Positions 33,182 through 37,660 of a DNA stretch of 37,660 bases are shown here, piece after piece (the first letter of the stretch is position 1; every line of letters starts with the position of its first letter). Both the position numbers and the translations under genes were made by a program. The notes under the pieces were generated by a model. It was not told where the DNA came from and ran no database searches. It saw only the letters and a list, made by a program, of their open reading frames with translations. The stretch covers positions 1-37,660 of the forward strand of contig JAESTH010000180.1 in NCBI GenBank assembly GCA_016763695.1, read 5' to 3'. This DNA comes from Alcanivoracaceae bacterium. GTDB lineage: Bacteria > Pseudomonadota > Gammaproteobacteria > Xanthomonadales > Marinicellaceae.

Positions 33182-33206
33182 TGAATCAGTCTAATAAAAA
33201 ACTGAC

Positions 33207-33212
33207 ATTATA
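33207..33212 (-). promoter_or_regulatory. Possible -10 box for miaA-rimK
   Basis: TATAAT on the minus strand, 26 bp before the miaA TTG start. No good -35 is seen at 16-18 bp. It is the best promoter candidate in the 194-bp divergent gap 33182-33375. Confidence 0.35.
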
Positions 33213-33375
33213 CCCTAATCTCGAAATAGAAACGTGAATTAGACTGTAAACAATTGGGGCGTAAAGTGAATAAAAAAATACTAAGTCACCTTATTGATGA
33301 TGTAGTATTTTCTCCTATTCTCAGATAGACTCCTGATATAGACTTCAGGCTCGCCAAGAGAAAACAGTTAAAACC

Positions 33376-33570
33376 ATGAACAAGCATCAAAAAGAAATCA
33401 AAAACCTGATTCAGGCATTTTGTTTGGCAGAACTGGATAAAGCGCAAAATCATTTTGCTATTGAATTACTGAAATTCATCATTGCAGAGCCAATTCTTGA
33501 CATTGACCGTGGTAAAGCACATATCTGGGCAGCATCAAATCTACCACTAAAAACAAAACCACCAAAATGA
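33376..33570 (+). CDS. Small hypothetical protein
   Basis: A 64-residue protein without recognised family. It is mostly helical, with EIKNLIQAFCLAELDKAQNH and an acidic/hydrophobic FIIAEPILDIDRGK. No signal peptide or membrane segment. Its stop overlaps the ATG of the next small gene (ATGA at 33567-33570), which supports a real two-gene unit. A promoter candidate upstream is TTGATG (33294-33299), a 16-bp spacer and TATTCT (33316-33321). The ribosome site is weak. Confidence 0.45.
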   Translation: MNKHQKEIKNLIQAFCLAELDKAQNHFAIELLKFIIAEPILDIDRGKAHIWAASNLPLKTKPPK

Positions 33571-33856
33571 GCAGGTTTATTATATAACGGCAGGTGATGA
33601 AGACTTAACAAAACCAGAGATTGCTGAAATATTTAAAATGTATGTCACAGAAGAAGGGCTTGTCATTCCCACTTCTATGATTAATGGTAAACGTCTAACA
33701 CTCGGAACCCTTTCTCCTGAACAGGGAGCAGAATTTAAAAGGCTAGAGCAGCAAAAACGACAAAAACACCAGGGCGAGATGGAAGCCAAAGAAAAAATCC
33801 GTCAGGAAGAAGCTCGTTTAAAGAAAATAAACCCTAATCAAATAGACTTGTTTTAA
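33567..33856 (+). pseudogene. Small hypothetical gene, apparently frameshifted after codon 2
   Basis: The ATG at 33567 overlaps the previous stop but meets a stop after six codons. One base out of phase, a long frame runs from about 33573 to 33856: QVYYITAGDEDLTKPEIAEI, later MINGKRLTLGTLSPEQG, then a Lys/Glu/Gln-rich coiled-coil-like helix ending NPNQIDLF. Adding one base near 33572 would give a 96-residue protein. The first in-frame ATG otherwise is at 33638 (72 residues), without a Shine-Dalgarno. So it is a mutated gene, a sequence error, or a gene with an internal start. Function unknown. Confidence 0.45.
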
Positions 33857-33906
33857 AGGTTTCACATAGGTGCTTGAAACAATAGAAGGTTTATTTTCTT
33901 AAGCCA

Positions 33907-34032
33907 ATGATAAAATTAGGCTCAAAGTCCTTAGTTTCGATGATTTTACATGGCAAAAGAAAGCTGATAAAAGAACACCTTAATAAACAGTCTAAAAGAT
34001 TTAAACTGAGCCCTGCTATATTTTATAAATGA
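33907..34032 (+). CDS. Doubtful 41-codon basic ORF
   Basis: In the 290 bp between the small gene pair and the ATP-grasp gene there is one short ATG-initiated frame rich in Lys/Arg (HGKRKLIKEHLNKQSKRF). It ends 12 bp before the inverted repeat starts. The ribosome site is weak and the A+T-rich context makes chance quite possible. Nothing else was seen in this stretch. Confidence 0.2.
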   Translation: MIKLGSKSLVSMILHGKRKLIKEHLNKQSKRFKLSPAIFYK

Positions 34033-34044
34033 TGTAACTATTTA

Positions 34045-34153
34045 GTGTGGCCAAGGTTTATATTTGCAATAACGTACAATAAATATGGTGTTTTTTTATT
34101 ATATAACTTATAGTAAGTAACAATTAAATAATCATAACTAGGAATTATGGATA
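34045..34153 (+). repeat. Left copy of a perfect inverted repeat of at least 109 bp
   Basis: Base for base the reverse complement of 37552-37660, checked by hand with no mismatch or gap. It contains the upstream region, a TTTTTTTATTATATAAC stretch suitable for a -10, a small dyad (ACTTA/TAAGT at 34106-34118), an AGGA Shine-Dalgarno at 34140-34143 and the start ATG plus four bases of the ATP-grasp gene. Identity stops at 34154. The outer limit is unknown because the right copy is cut by the window edge. Confidence 0.97.
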
Positions 34154-35172
34154 GAAATAAAAAATTTTCTGGACTATTAGTTCTCGTTTCAGAAAATAAA
34201 AATGTAGATACTTCAGGTCTCAATATTGATAATCGAAATTTAGAGATACATAATAAGTCATACACTCAGTACCTTTTCTCATTATTTTTAGAGTTTTGTA
34301 ATGAAACTGTAATGATTGACGATCTTACTAACTTAGCAAAGTTTCTTCCTAAGAAAAAAGATGTAGTGGTTTTTTCGATTTGGAGTGGGGCAAAGTCAAG
34401 AAATAGAATGATGCTTGTTCCAGCTATTTGCGAGAGTTTAAATATACCATATATTGGAGCTGACAGTTATGCAAAAACCATTTGCCAAGATAAGTTTATT
34501 TCACGAATTTTTGCAAAAAGAATGGGGTTTGAAGTACCAAACGCTGCCTTAATAGAAAAAATAAGTGACCTTGAAATCATTGACTGGATACTTTTTCCCA
34601 TAATAGTTAAACCAAATATGGAAGGAACATCAATTGGTGTTCGATTATTCCAGAAAGGCATGGTTGCACAAGCTAAATCAGCAATTAAAACAATGTTTGA
34701 TCTATATGATAAATCTATTTTGGTTGAAGAATTCATACCAGGCAAAGAAATATCAATACTTGTATACGGAACAAGTGAAAAACCTGAAATATTAGGGGCT
34801 GTTGAATTAATTAATACTACAGACTCAGAATATTTTTATAATAATATAGCGAGTTATCAAGGAAAAAGAAAGTTATATAAACAAGGTCATATAAAAAGAG
34901 TGGATATCAGTCATACTATTAAACAACATATCTATGATATTGCTAAAAAAACTTTTTCATGTTTTGGTAAAATGGACTTTTTGCGTATTGATGGAAGGTT
35001 AGATGGAGATAACTTTACTTTTATCGAATTTTCACCATTGCCAAACTTCAAACCCTTTGGTCAAATAGCAACCTTACTTGATAATGATAAAAATAAAATC
35101 CAAGATTTTGCTTATACATTATTGAAATATAATATCAATCAAACTCAATTGCCCAATACGCAAGATACATAG
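34147..35172 (+). CDS. ATP-grasp ligase, D-Ala-D-Ala-ligase-like, unknown substrate
   Basis: A 341-residue ATP-grasp enzyme with the Ddl domain order. NIPYIGADSYAK (99-110) and DKFISRIFAKRMGFEVP (115-131) match the pre-ATP region. FPIIVKPNMEGTSIGVRLF (150-168) is the ATP-binding lysine and glycine loop, ILVEEFIPGKEISILVYG (191-208) the adenine-side strand, and FLRIDGRL with FIEFSPLPNF the metal site. Two things deviate: the N-terminal HGxxGEDG of true Ddl is replaced by FSIWSGAKSRNR, and the usual ExN reads EFS. A peptide or amino-acid ligase with another substrate is likely. It starts inside the inverted repeat and converges with the ATPase gene; codon use is very A/T-rich. Confidence 0.85.
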   Translation: MDRNKKFSGLLVLVSENKNVDTSGLNIDNRNLEIHNKSYTQYLFSLFLEFCNETVMIDDLTNLAKFLPKKKDVVVFSIWSGAKSRNRMMLVPAICESLNIPYIGADSYAKTICQDKFISRIFAKRMGFEVPNAALIEKISDLEIIDWILFPIIVKPNMEGTSIGVRLFQKGMVAQAKSAIKTMFDLYDKSILVEEFIPGKEISILVYGTSEKPEILGAVELINTTDSEYFYNNIASYQGKRKLYKQGHIKRVDISHTIKQHIYDIAKKTFSCFGKMDFLRIDGRLDGDNFTFIEFSPLPNFKPFGQIATLLDNDKNKIQDFAYTLLKYNINQTQLPNTQDT

Positions 35173-37558
35173 GCCTATAAGTCATTCTTGCAAAGTGTAG
35201 CTCGTATTTACACTTAATTTTCTTAGGGAATTTACTAATTGCCGCAAGTAATTTGTGTTTTCGCAATTTTGTTAATACGAATTTAGGAATTTTTTGACTC
35301 AAATAACCTTTATTGTACCCTAATGCTATTTCAGTATATTCCATATTCTTTTTAATTGTCCAGTACATTCCAACATCAAGATTAGGGTTTGTTTTCACTA
35401 GCTCAATAACTTCATTTGCGTACTGAATAGCGGTCTTATCATCGTTTATCATCACAGAGGCCAACATAAGATTAGTGGTAATAACAGCTACTTCGTAAGG
35501 CTTGGTATAAATAAGTAAAAGCTCTTCCAAATTAGAAAAAAGTTCTGGGTCGACTATCTTCTCATGTAATTTCAAAGCCTCCTGATTATTTATAACAATA
35601 TTGTGATCGGTATTGCGATTAATTAATTCTTTCTTTGCCTCATTGAAATACATTTTGCTTTTTTCTATGTGCTCTGTCTTTGCTAGCGCAATAGAAAGTT
35701 TTATTTTTGTTCTAGCCAATGATAAATGCATTTTTTTCTCGGAAAAGATTCTAATGGCCTCAGATAAGTCAATGATTGATTTGTTAATTGAGTTAAACAT
35801 TGGAGAACATCTTAATAAAAATGCATAGGCTGCATGATCATTTTGTGATGTATCTTTTCTAAGGCTATAATAAATTTTTGAAGATTCTGAAAATTTTGAA
35901 AGATAATAATGAGCTGTCAACGCTACAATCTCAAATAACATTTGAGTCTCTTTATTTATATAATCTGCTTCCATCTCAAATAATTGATTGATTTTTTTTA
36001 AAGCTTTTGTAGGCATATTCATTTTAAGCAAGATTAATGATAGCTTAAGTTCATTGTTAATATCCCAATATTTTGTAAATTCAATACATTTTAATAATGA
36101 ATGTGACAACTCAAGCAAACCAAAACGGATTGCAGCATTGAGTATCTCATTCATCACAAGGCACCAAGCAGGCGATGTTTTTTCCTTAATAATCCAATCT
36201 GCAAGTGGTTGAAGATATATAATAGGGGACAAGCTATGTTTTGCATAGAATAGAACCTCTTTTATCATAGCTAAAAGGCTTGCTTTATCTTCAAGGCGAC
36301 ATAAAATTTTTAATCTGCGCAAGGTAATTTCATTTGATGCTAAATCTAAACTATTTTTGTTGGAATCATCATACACTTTTTTCCATATTCTTAACGCTAA
36401 CACGTCATATTTGCCAAGAAAATCAGAACTACCTACAATTCTAAAACTCACATCATCAGCCGTATTAACACTTCCAGAACAAATTTTAATAAAATCTTTC
36501 TTTTCAAGTGTGTTCAGACAATGCCTTAGTTGACGTGAATCCATTTTTCCTAGTGAATGAGAGGCTGCAATTTGTAGAAGACTTAATGGAAAGCTACCAT
36601 CACTAGTAATAATTAAAGCTAAAATTAGCTTTTCATCATCATTGAGTAAATTAAACTCATTTACTGTTACTGATTCAATTCCATATTTACTTTTAGAAAT
36701 GGATTGTAATGTAGATGAAAGTACTTTTCCTCGATAATTGGCCATTTGATTTAGAGGTTTCAAGTTCCCATCTGAGTCATTATAGTAACGACCTATAACT
36801 TCTAATGAATCTACATCTTTACTTGATACAATTTCCAAAGCATAATTTGTTGGTAATCTCATTAACTCAATGGATTCTCGATGTTTAGCTACGCCAGAAA
36901 ACTCATTTAATAAATCTTCTTCGTTTTCTATGGAGTTAACATTTTTAGTATATTCTAAAATACAATATATGGTCCTTGTTTTTTTTATTATCATTCGTAA
37001 AAAATTGATAAATTCATCATCTATACTGTGTGCATTTTCAACGATGATAAGTACTTGTTTATTTTTTATGGAATCAATTAGATATGAACTAAATTGAATT
37101 TGCCCTTCCAAATATGGTGAAGACATGAGCATTCCTAGCTCTCTGTCTGTAAAATCGGATACGTTTTCTGCAAAGCTCACCAGCTTTTTGGAAATTGGAT
37201 CAAATTTACTAAATGCTTTAATTGCACCTAATGAGATTTTTTTTAGTGTTTCTTTAGGCTTACTCTTAAAATAATCTATTAAGCTGGGAAGTTTTCCTTC
37301 AAGCTTTAAAGCAATGGTATTTTCAACAAATGATTTATAATGTACTCCTTTAGATACCTTTCTATTACTGCAAAAATTTGTAGATACCCTGAATGTTAAA
37401 TGAGAATCAACTTTTTTTGTTATCTCTTCAGTTAATGCTGATTTTCCTATTCCTTGCCCTGCATATAAAATCAATACCTTCTTATGGATATTTAAATCTT
37501 TTATGTCATTTATTATCTGATTTTTGATAACTTTTCGGTCTACAAAAGATTTATCCAT
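35135..37558 (-). CDS. STAND/AAA16-type ATPase with helical-repeat C-terminus
   Basis: An 807-residue predicted signalling ATPase. SFVDRK at 4-9 is the short motif that precedes the NTPase in STAND/LuxR-type proteins. The P-loop AGQGIGKS is at 33-40. The Walker B region is VLIIVENAHSIDDEF (168-182), with Glu-Asn where Asp-Asp is usual but keeping the AHxxD pattern. A winged-helix-like segment follows (LNDDEKLILALI to LNTLEKKDFIKI, about 305-365), then some 400 residues of TPR-like helices. No DNA-binding LuxR domain or known effector is visible. The last 12 codons lie antisense to the ATP-grasp gene. It starts in the right copy of the inverted repeat. Confidence 0.8.
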   Translation of the reverse strand: MDKSFVDRKVIKNQIINDIKDLNIHKKVLILYAGQGIGKSALTEEITKKVDSHLTFRVSTNFCSNRKVSKGVHYKSFVENTIALKLEGKLPSLIDYFKSKPKETLKKISLGAIKAFSKFDPISKKLVSFAENVSDFTDRELGMLMSSPYLEGQIQFSSYLIDSIKNKQVLIIVENAHSIDDEFINFLRMIIKKTRTIYCILEYTKNVNSIENEEDLLNEFSGVAKHRESIELMRLPTNYALEIVSSKDVDSLEVIGRYYNDSDGNLKPLNQMANYRGKVLSSTLQSISKSKYGIESVTVNEFNLLNDDEKLILALIITSDGSFPLSLLQIAASHSLGKMDSRQLRHCLNTLEKKDFIKICSGSVNTADDVSFRIVGSSDFLGKYDVLALRIWKKVYDDSNKNSLDLASNEITLRRLKILCRLEDKASLLAMIKEVLFYAKHSLSPIIYLQPLADWIIKEKTSPAWCLVMNEILNAAIRFGLLELSHSLLKCIEFTKYWDINNELKLSLILLKMNMPTKALKKINQLFEMEADYINKETQMLFEIVALTAHYYLSKFSESSKIYYSLRKDTSQNDHAAYAFLLRCSPMFNSINKSIIDLSEAIRIFSEKKMHLSLARTKIKLSIALAKTEHIEKSKMYFNEAKKELINRNTDHNIVINNQEALKLHEKIVDPELFSNLEELLLIYTKPYEVAVITTNLMLASVMINDDKTAIQYANEVIELVKTNPNLDVGMYWTIKKNMEYTEIALGYNKGYLSQKIPKFVLTKLRKHKLLAAISKFPKKIKCKYELHFARMTYRPMYLAYWAIEFD

Positions 37559-37660
37559 AATTCCTAGTTATGATTATTTAATTGTTACTTACTATAAGTT
37601 ATATAATAAAAAAACACCATATTTATTGTACGTTATTGCAAATATAAACCTTGGCCACAC
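37552..37660 (-). repeat. Right copy of the inverted repeat, cut by the window end
   Basis: Exact reverse complement of 34045-34153. In this orientation it provides the upstream region, Shine-Dalgarno and start codon of the ATPase gene. Identity ends at 37552, after ATGGATA. It continues to the last base of the window, so its true length is not known. Confidence 0.97.

Follow-up and report, generated by a model that had tools for sequence, protein, structure and literature searches.

A putative invertible two-gene switch with recombination sites at the start codons in an Alcanivoracaceae bacterium

When two unrelated genes point at each other and each begins inside one arm of a perfect inverted repeat, does the repeat supply both genes with one control region, or does it bound a segment of DNA that flips? 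This question is raised by the right-hand end of a 37,660-nucleotide stretch from an Alcanivoracaceae bacterium (GCA_016763695.1, JAESTH010000180.1, positions 1 to 37,660; below, the window), in which an ATP-grasp ligase gene faces a gene for a STAND-like ATPase. The window is the whole of contig C111 in a 3.88-Mb, 85%-complete assembly of 312 contigs. Our answer is that segment 34134-37571 is quite likely an invertible two-gene switch with a dedicated XerC/D-like tyrosine recombinase and either/or expression of its two genes. The features concerned are the following:

33857-34133, plus strand: flank A, the non-coding region upstream of the left site, with a presumed promoter
34045-34153, plus strand: left 109-bp arm of the perfect inverted repeat, made up of 89 bp of flank A, the site core and 5 bp of coding start
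34134-34148, plus strand: core of the left recombination site, ATAACTAGGAATTAT, which extends into the ATG of the ATP-grasp gene
34147-35172, plus strand: ATP-grasp ligase gene, 341 amino acids, assigned by Pfam and Foldseek
35135-37558, minus strand: STAND-like ATPase gene, 807 amino acids, assigned by its P-loop and model fold
37557-37571, minus strand: core of the right recombination site, an inverted copy of that 15-mer, which extends into the ATG of the STAND gene
37552-37660, minus strand: right 109-bp arm of the same repeat, ending at the last base of the contig

The original prediction, made from the letters alone, had described a perfect inverted repeat of at least 109 bp in which both genes start, and this was confirmed: the arms are 109 nucleotides each, 100% complementary and separated by 3398 nucleotides, and both open reading frames (ORFs) begin with ATGGATA inside them. 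The two ORFs are convergent, as had been described, with a 38-bp overlap, and the impression that the module is more A/T-rich also holds, its G+C content being 29.8% (34045-37660) versus 38.4% in 1-33200, where every 3.6-kb interval has a higher value (minimum 34.9%). The 109-mer was found at two places only in the assembly, both in the window. Weak matches of 34-61 bp occurred in 3 of 100 relatives; a dispersed element was ruled out on the grounds that the genome holds two copies only. The right arm stops exactly at the last base of the contig, so that the repeat could not be extended beyond 109 bp.

Whether the gene pair forms a unit was addressed by searching for both genes elsewhere. In a tblastn search with the STAND protein, 2 of 72,556 plasmid records matched, both from Aliarcobacter, and the two best plasmid matches of the ATP-grasp protein were the same two plasmids. 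Together they carry three modules in which ATP-grasp and STAND genes are adjacent and convergent with a tyrosine recombinase gene alongside. When one genome per species (84,980 species) was scanned with an alignment of five ATP-grasp sequences, eight loci were found, in three other Bacteroidota, Mucilaginibacter, an Ignavibacteria bacterium, Magnetospirillum, Amphritea and Ralstonia; the same scan of genome contigs with the window ATP-grasp alone as the query found none. All eight loci have a convergent STAND partner, one of them cut by the contig end, in agreement with the expectation that such genes occur as convergent pairs, though one ATP-grasp homologue without a STAND gene is known from Sinorhizobium meliloti (see below). 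A tyrosine recombinase lies beside 8 of the 11 modules, adjoining five of the eight scan loci (one as a split gene) and all three plasmid modules, and the contigs of the other three modules stop at the repeat. In two of these three the recombinase and a site are found at the end of another contig, and the third, L111, has C-terminal recombinase codons at both ends. Ahead of the ATP-grasp gene, the second Aliarcobacter module as well as L111, L112 and L113 carry a third gene, which has an aminoacyl-tRNA editing domain. The split recombinase gene, that of L114, lies in two pieces (L114:5935-6600), and the STAND gene of plasmid pM830MA is annotated as two overlapping coding sequences (L102:1937-4407).

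The window STAND gene was absent from 100 relatives, and a STAND profile, run against a phylum sample of 398 genomes in which few candidates were scored in each, returned its own genome only; as judged from these searches the pair is rare. Carriage by viruses was ruled out: five scans of viral contigs, one with the exact DNA pattern, gave no relatives of the module, no phage record matched the STAND protein, and the 16 phage records matching the ATP-grasp protein did so at 21-29% identity, the same level as ordinary D-alanine-D-alanine ligases (Ddl).

Direct evidence that modules of this kind invert comes from the Aliarcobacter plasmids pM830MA and pACRY43158, in both of which the module is bordered by a shared recombinase gene at one end and by a shared DUF4172 gene at the other. 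A stretch of 3.46 kb in one plasmid is the reverse complement of that in the other (99.9% identity), the flanks are collinear in forward alignment at 99.0% and 99.9%, and the breakpoints fall inside AATAATAGGATATTATA. Inversion in relatives is thus well supported, with a completed inversion between these two plasmids. Moreover, among the eight modules with a recombinase on the contig, the gene facing the recombinase is the ATP-grasp gene in four (L102, L110, L113 and L114) and the STAND gene in four (L103 twice, L112 and L116), and the suggestion that the module is of an invertible kind was accordingly upheld.

The site at which inversion would occur is a 15-mer of the form ATAA-N7-TTAT. Resolved segments have it as an inverted pair, identical within a segment, at their outer start codons, where it runs into the start codon or stops shortly before it. 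The 15-mer of the window is the same as in the Amphritea (L116) and Ralstonia (L117) loci. Applying the definition of an inverted ATAA-N7-TTAT pair with identical core and arms 0.8-6 kb apart, we found it once per segment in all 14 resolved segments, two of which are one Aliarcobacter locus in its two orientations, and in the window. No such pair was present in three control Xer loci (20 kb each), in 30 Markov shuffles per locus or in 1.23 Mb of other contigs of the source genome. A search of the source genome for the site with up to two mismatches gave exact matches at two places, both in the window, and 16 places with one or two mismatches, a total of 18 versus 36 for the reversed control pattern and hence no excess.

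In the relatives the inverted segment is 1.7-5.4 kb long and includes coding genes. The exact repeat measures 17-30 bp in each of the 14 resolved segments, and the 90 bp outside it are unrelated between the two ends (26-47% identity, 14/14). Since the outer flanks are unrelated in every resolved segment, inversion exchanges the DNA upstream of each gene, and the original claim that flipping the module leaves both expression units intact was not supported.

Tyrosine recombinases are recognised by a catalytic Arg, a His-x-x-Arg motif, a Gly-His motif and a Tyr. The recombinases of the relatives have Phage_integrase and SAM-like N-terminal domains (Pfam E 6e-43 for two), and TGxRVSE, TPHxFRH, LGH and IYT are visible in their alignment, except in the cut L114 row and in the variants of L116, so that on sequence grounds they are classed as tyrosine recombinases. 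They belong to the same protein family as XerC/XerD-type recombinases, yet differ from them in forming a separate group in the tree and in standing beside an inverted site pair, which none of the three Xer controls has. In a quick-search tree with midpoint root, from which the split L114 gene was left out, the 16 module recombinases were separated by one branch from 23 other Xer-type ones (SH-aLRT 99). Furthermore, the recombinase stop codon lies 3-38 bp from the site, with the gene directed toward the site, in 12 of the 14 segments.

The association was examined from the recombinase side by searching 395 Bacteroidota genomes with the recombinase alignment, which gave 13 matches at E <= 1e-70, eight above 320 bits (one being the known Mucilaginibacter gene) and five at 239-252 bits. 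Ten of the 12 new loci were examined, namely all seven high scorers and three of the five low scorers. Five of the seven high scorers had the inverted site pair around convergent genes, one had it around a decayed stretch and one lay on a contig ending at a single site; the pair was seen at none of the three low scorers. The recombinase of this clade is presumably the enzyme performing the inversion.

Taken together, these observations suggest the following mechanism. A recombinase, expected for the window copy just past the contig end, would recombine the two ATAA-N7-TTAT sites at the starts of the ATP-grasp and STAND genes. A crossover within the site would swap the DNA upstream of the two coding regions, and would thereby decide which gene follows the recombinase gene, and so its transcript, and which one follows flank A. 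Flank A likely holds the promoter of whichever gene faces it; translation of flank A in its three forward frames did not reveal a recombinase C-terminus. Given that the recombinase stop is 3-38 bp from the site, its transcript could run on into the proximal gene. Only the gene behind the active promoter would then be expressed, and an either/or, phase-variable switch seems to us the simplest reading of the layout.

Several observations weigh against this proposal. No recombinase was found next to the window copy, which follows from the contig ending at the site; the assembly has five Xer-type matches, none of them with a site. Three of the five were included in the tree and grouped apart from the module clade, and the other two, on C268 (cut by the contig start) and C115 (a frame of about 297 amino acids), were without a site within the stretch examined. 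A promoter scan of the window gave 19 promoter-like matches versus a shuffle mean of 23.3, no excess, and the promoter in flank A is therefore counted as presumed; a terminator scan of the window found none. In L110, one of the 14, recombinase and module are divergent, a misfit to simple read-through, and in Mucilaginibacter a second inverted pair of sites is located 5' of the same recombinase (L214:2598-7537), where read-through from the recombinase is impossible. Flank A may carry its own promoter, in which case both genes could be on, and a true 109-bp repeat would keep one and the same promoter on both genes. Finally, at L236:7631-9414 a site pair stands beside an intact recombinase with only decayed sequence inside (no ORF of at least 90 amino acids), possibly a dead or replaceable cassette.

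The best-surviving alternative accepts inversion and dispenses with the either/or outcome: with promoters on both flanks both genes would always be on, and inversion would swap promoter strength or be a by-product of a mobile element. The variation of flank A among loci is compatible with this: L110, L112 and L237 have codirectional neighbours nearby, L102/L103 and L235 divergent ones. Against it, different phyla and unrelated cargo genes share the arrangement in which the site stands at the start codons and the recombinase stop is 3-38 bp away in 12 of 14 segments, a sign that coupling to the upstream transcript may be important, and we consider this alternative doubtful.

A second alternative takes the 109-bp repeat at face value, as a true duplicated control region that would give both genes the same promoter, co-regulate them and make inversion neutral for expression. 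The arms are indeed 100% identical over 109 bp, 89 bp of which lie upstream of the core. However, the 14 resolved relatives all have short exact repeats and unrelated outer flanks, and for this reason we think that the 109-bp repeat probably records, over the length of one k-mer, the joining of flank A to both genes in a population of mixed orientation. The assembler would have followed reads of inverted molecules from the STAND gene into flank A and stopped after one k-mer, so that the outer 89 bp of the right arm are probably the junction of flank A and STAND in inverted molecules and may be an assembly join of two real junctions. The contig stops exactly at the outer edge of the arm, which also argues against a true repeat. 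Moreover, among 224 ends of 121 contigs, a further nine matches of 60 bp or more at contig ends were found (119, 93, 89, 89, 89, 79, 78, 72 and 68 bp), and five of the nine belong to the 10n+9 series into which 109 falls (chance about 9e-4 at 1 in 10 each, for a series defined post hoc). In the only comparable case, L111, the 82-bp end repeat includes the apparent last recombinase codons at both ends (EKHPRHELAFELS-stop) and is, as a matter of sequence, best read as two junctions.

Other assemblies break at the same place. Three contigs meet at the site in Ralstonia sp. A12, where a repeat of about 23 bp alone should not stop an assembler; in Magnetospirillum the recombinase contig starts and the module contig ends in the site, and in genome G583 a contig ends just past it. 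Repeated contig breaks at the site are what a mixed-orientation population would give. A duplicated control region seems to us unlikely, and the joining of flank A to both genes in the contig suggests that the window copy may invert in its own population. The possibility, anticipated in the original prediction, that the repeat is an assembly fold-back is partly borne out, in that a join could account for the outer 89 bp of the right arm, and partly not, as such a join needs reads of a really inverted molecule.

A transposon-like unit with terminal inverted repeats and two passenger genes, for which inversion is incidental, would fit the A/T-rich segment, the absence of the STAND gene from 100 relatives and the carriage on plasmids, but the recombinase of the relatives lies outside the repeats and not between them, and the plasmid pair displays in-place inversion rather than movement, making this very improbable. 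A pure fold-back with no biological repeat behind it, to which the end of the right arm at the contig end could point, was rejected as hardly credible because the arms enclose two different intact genes starting inside them and because unrelated assemblies, as well as two plasmid records labelled complete sequence, show the same short-repeat layout.

If the segment is a switch, what does it switch? The ATP-grasp protein of the window matches the Pfam domain Dala_Dala_lig_C (PF07478) at 73.4 bits (cut-off 24), and it scores 94 bits against the NCBIfam Ddl models, far below their cut-off of 243. Its model is confident (pLDDT 85.9) and retrieves D-Ala-D-Ala ligases in Foldseek (best E 1.2e-18, approximately 17% identity). 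Residues K155, E194, R280, D282 and E294, which we take to be ATP-grasp residues in their presumed roles, are among those invariant in an 11-member alignment. The protein thus shares the ATP-grasp fold and C-terminal domain of Ddl enzymes, whereas it departs from them in the conserved NTxPGMT-like substrate segment and in the equivalog score: the MEVNTLPGMT stretch of Ddl is replaced in the family, the aligned segment reading IELSPD..., and hence its substrate is probably other than D-Ala-D-Ala. From its sequence we class it as a putative ATP-grasp ligase and not as Ddl. The homologue without a STAND partner, about 30% identical, lies in a non-ribosomal peptide synthetase cluster on an S. meliloti plasmid (L104:6992-7990; 14.9 kb examined), a hint that the ATP-grasp enzyme might make part of a small peptide-like compound.

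The STAND-like protein has a P-loop domain close to its N-terminus, starting near residue 33, and a TPR-like helical C-terminus. In its P-loop, GQGIGKS, residues G36, G38 and K39 are invariant among 10 homologues; AAA_22 of Pfam matches below cut-off only, and AAA_16 matches above cut-off in the homologue of L110. The model is of moderate confidence (pLDDT 75.5, pTM 0.54) and its best PDB match is the STAND-TPR protein 6mfv (E 2e-10), followed by weaker matches to Avs3 (E 3.2e-6) and Apaf-1 (E 1.6e-4). With its P-loop, STAND-like fold and C-terminal repeats it would be a STAND NTPase by predicted fold only.

Like Avs-type antiviral STAND proteins and 6mfv, the window protein combines a STAND ATPase with a TPR-like helical C-terminus; unlike them, it has no recognised N-terminal effector domain and no PADLOC match. 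PADLOC models gave no match to four window proteins at E 0.1, and among eight proteins of relatives they matched only a methyltransferase domain (mad2, E 2.6e-8) and, weakly (PDC-S47, E 8e-4), the tRNA-editing protein. The hints at a defence role are limited to the STAND fold, an Mrr-type nuclease in a sister cassette and putative TIR-like neighbours spotted by eye. The module may act in defence or signalling, and the ATP-grasp product and the STAND protein may serve a conflict or surface-chemistry role.

The cargo of the sister cassettes varies. An FAD oxidoreductase opposite a membrane protein occurs twice, with proteins 50% and 47% identical, and the two cassettes have opposite orientations relative to the recombinase. 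Other pairings are an EamA transporter opposite a methyltransferase, glycosyltransferases opposite the Mrr-type nuclease, which has a sub-threshold AAA match, and a spermidine-synthase-like protein opposite a protein of unknown kind. In the second Mucilaginibacter segment a 1048-amino-acid protein with no Pfam or PADLOC match stands opposite a methyltransferase and a glycosyltransferase; by eye this protein is nuclease- and STAND-like. Hence, we speculated if a cross-phylum recombinase clade maintains toggle cassettes of two unrelated convergent genes, of which one or the other is expressed per cell as bet-hedging in immunity or surface change. In several cases a small-molecule or surface-chemistry enzyme would be opposed to a STAND or Mrr-AAA conflict-type protein, and populations would split into 'enzyme' cells and 'sensor' cells. 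We offer this wider view as a tentative possibility, somewhat short of an even chance.

On its left the module is preceded by miaA, which is conserved in relatives. Between miaA and the module (33376-33856) are two short ORFs, one with a sub-threshold DUF6398 match, which are possibly remnants. At 33206-33313 lies a dispersed repeat of about 105 bp, resembling a miniature inverted-repeat transposable element, of which this genome has six more copies or fragments and genomes of the same genus have others (71-91% identical, some matches partial).

Several known systems resemble the proposed switch. In Moraxella, pilin inversion is carried out by Piv, a member of the Piv/MooV family. In Salmonella Hin and the tail-fibre segments of phages Mu and P1, serine recombinases invert a segment that links alternative genes to one promoter, and inversion switches as a class are well known (PMC8987985). 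As in these systems, a segment with short inverted sites flips and attaches one or the other gene to a fixed upstream region. Unlike them, where serine or Piv/MooV enzymes act on flagellin, tail-fibre or pilin genes, the enzymes here are a tyrosine recombinase clade, the genes are unrelated whole genes of different function, and the site is at both start codons. RecV of Clostridioides difficile is a tyrosine recombinase, and it is reported to invert short regulatory switches upstream of operons, with inverted repeats and both orientations in one population (PMC5903667); here, in contrast, 1.7-5.4-kb segments with coding genes are inverted. DNA inversion has also been linked to phage resistance, in that inversion of the P-segment by PinQ, a serine recombinase of a cryptic prophage, yields a chimeric tail-fibre-like protein and blocks phage T2 (PMC12529663), the genes involved being unrelated to the window module. 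What is new here is the combination of a tyrosine recombinase clade, unrelated convergent genes, start-codon sites and exchangeable cargo. A literature search found no description of the module or of the recombinase clade, which is weak evidence, as most subscription papers and preprints lay outside the search.

A practical caution, should the reading be true, is that an assembly from short reads may be interrupted at switches of this kind or may acquire a false repeat one k-mer long. The proposed switch, if true, would represent a new design of programmed DNA inversion, in which whole unrelated genes are swapped behind fixed upstream regions next to a tyrosine recombinase, and the cargo of recombinase-flipped cassettes would be exchanged between lineages. 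It would place an immunity-type class of sensor ATPase and a ligase of unknown product in one switchable unit.

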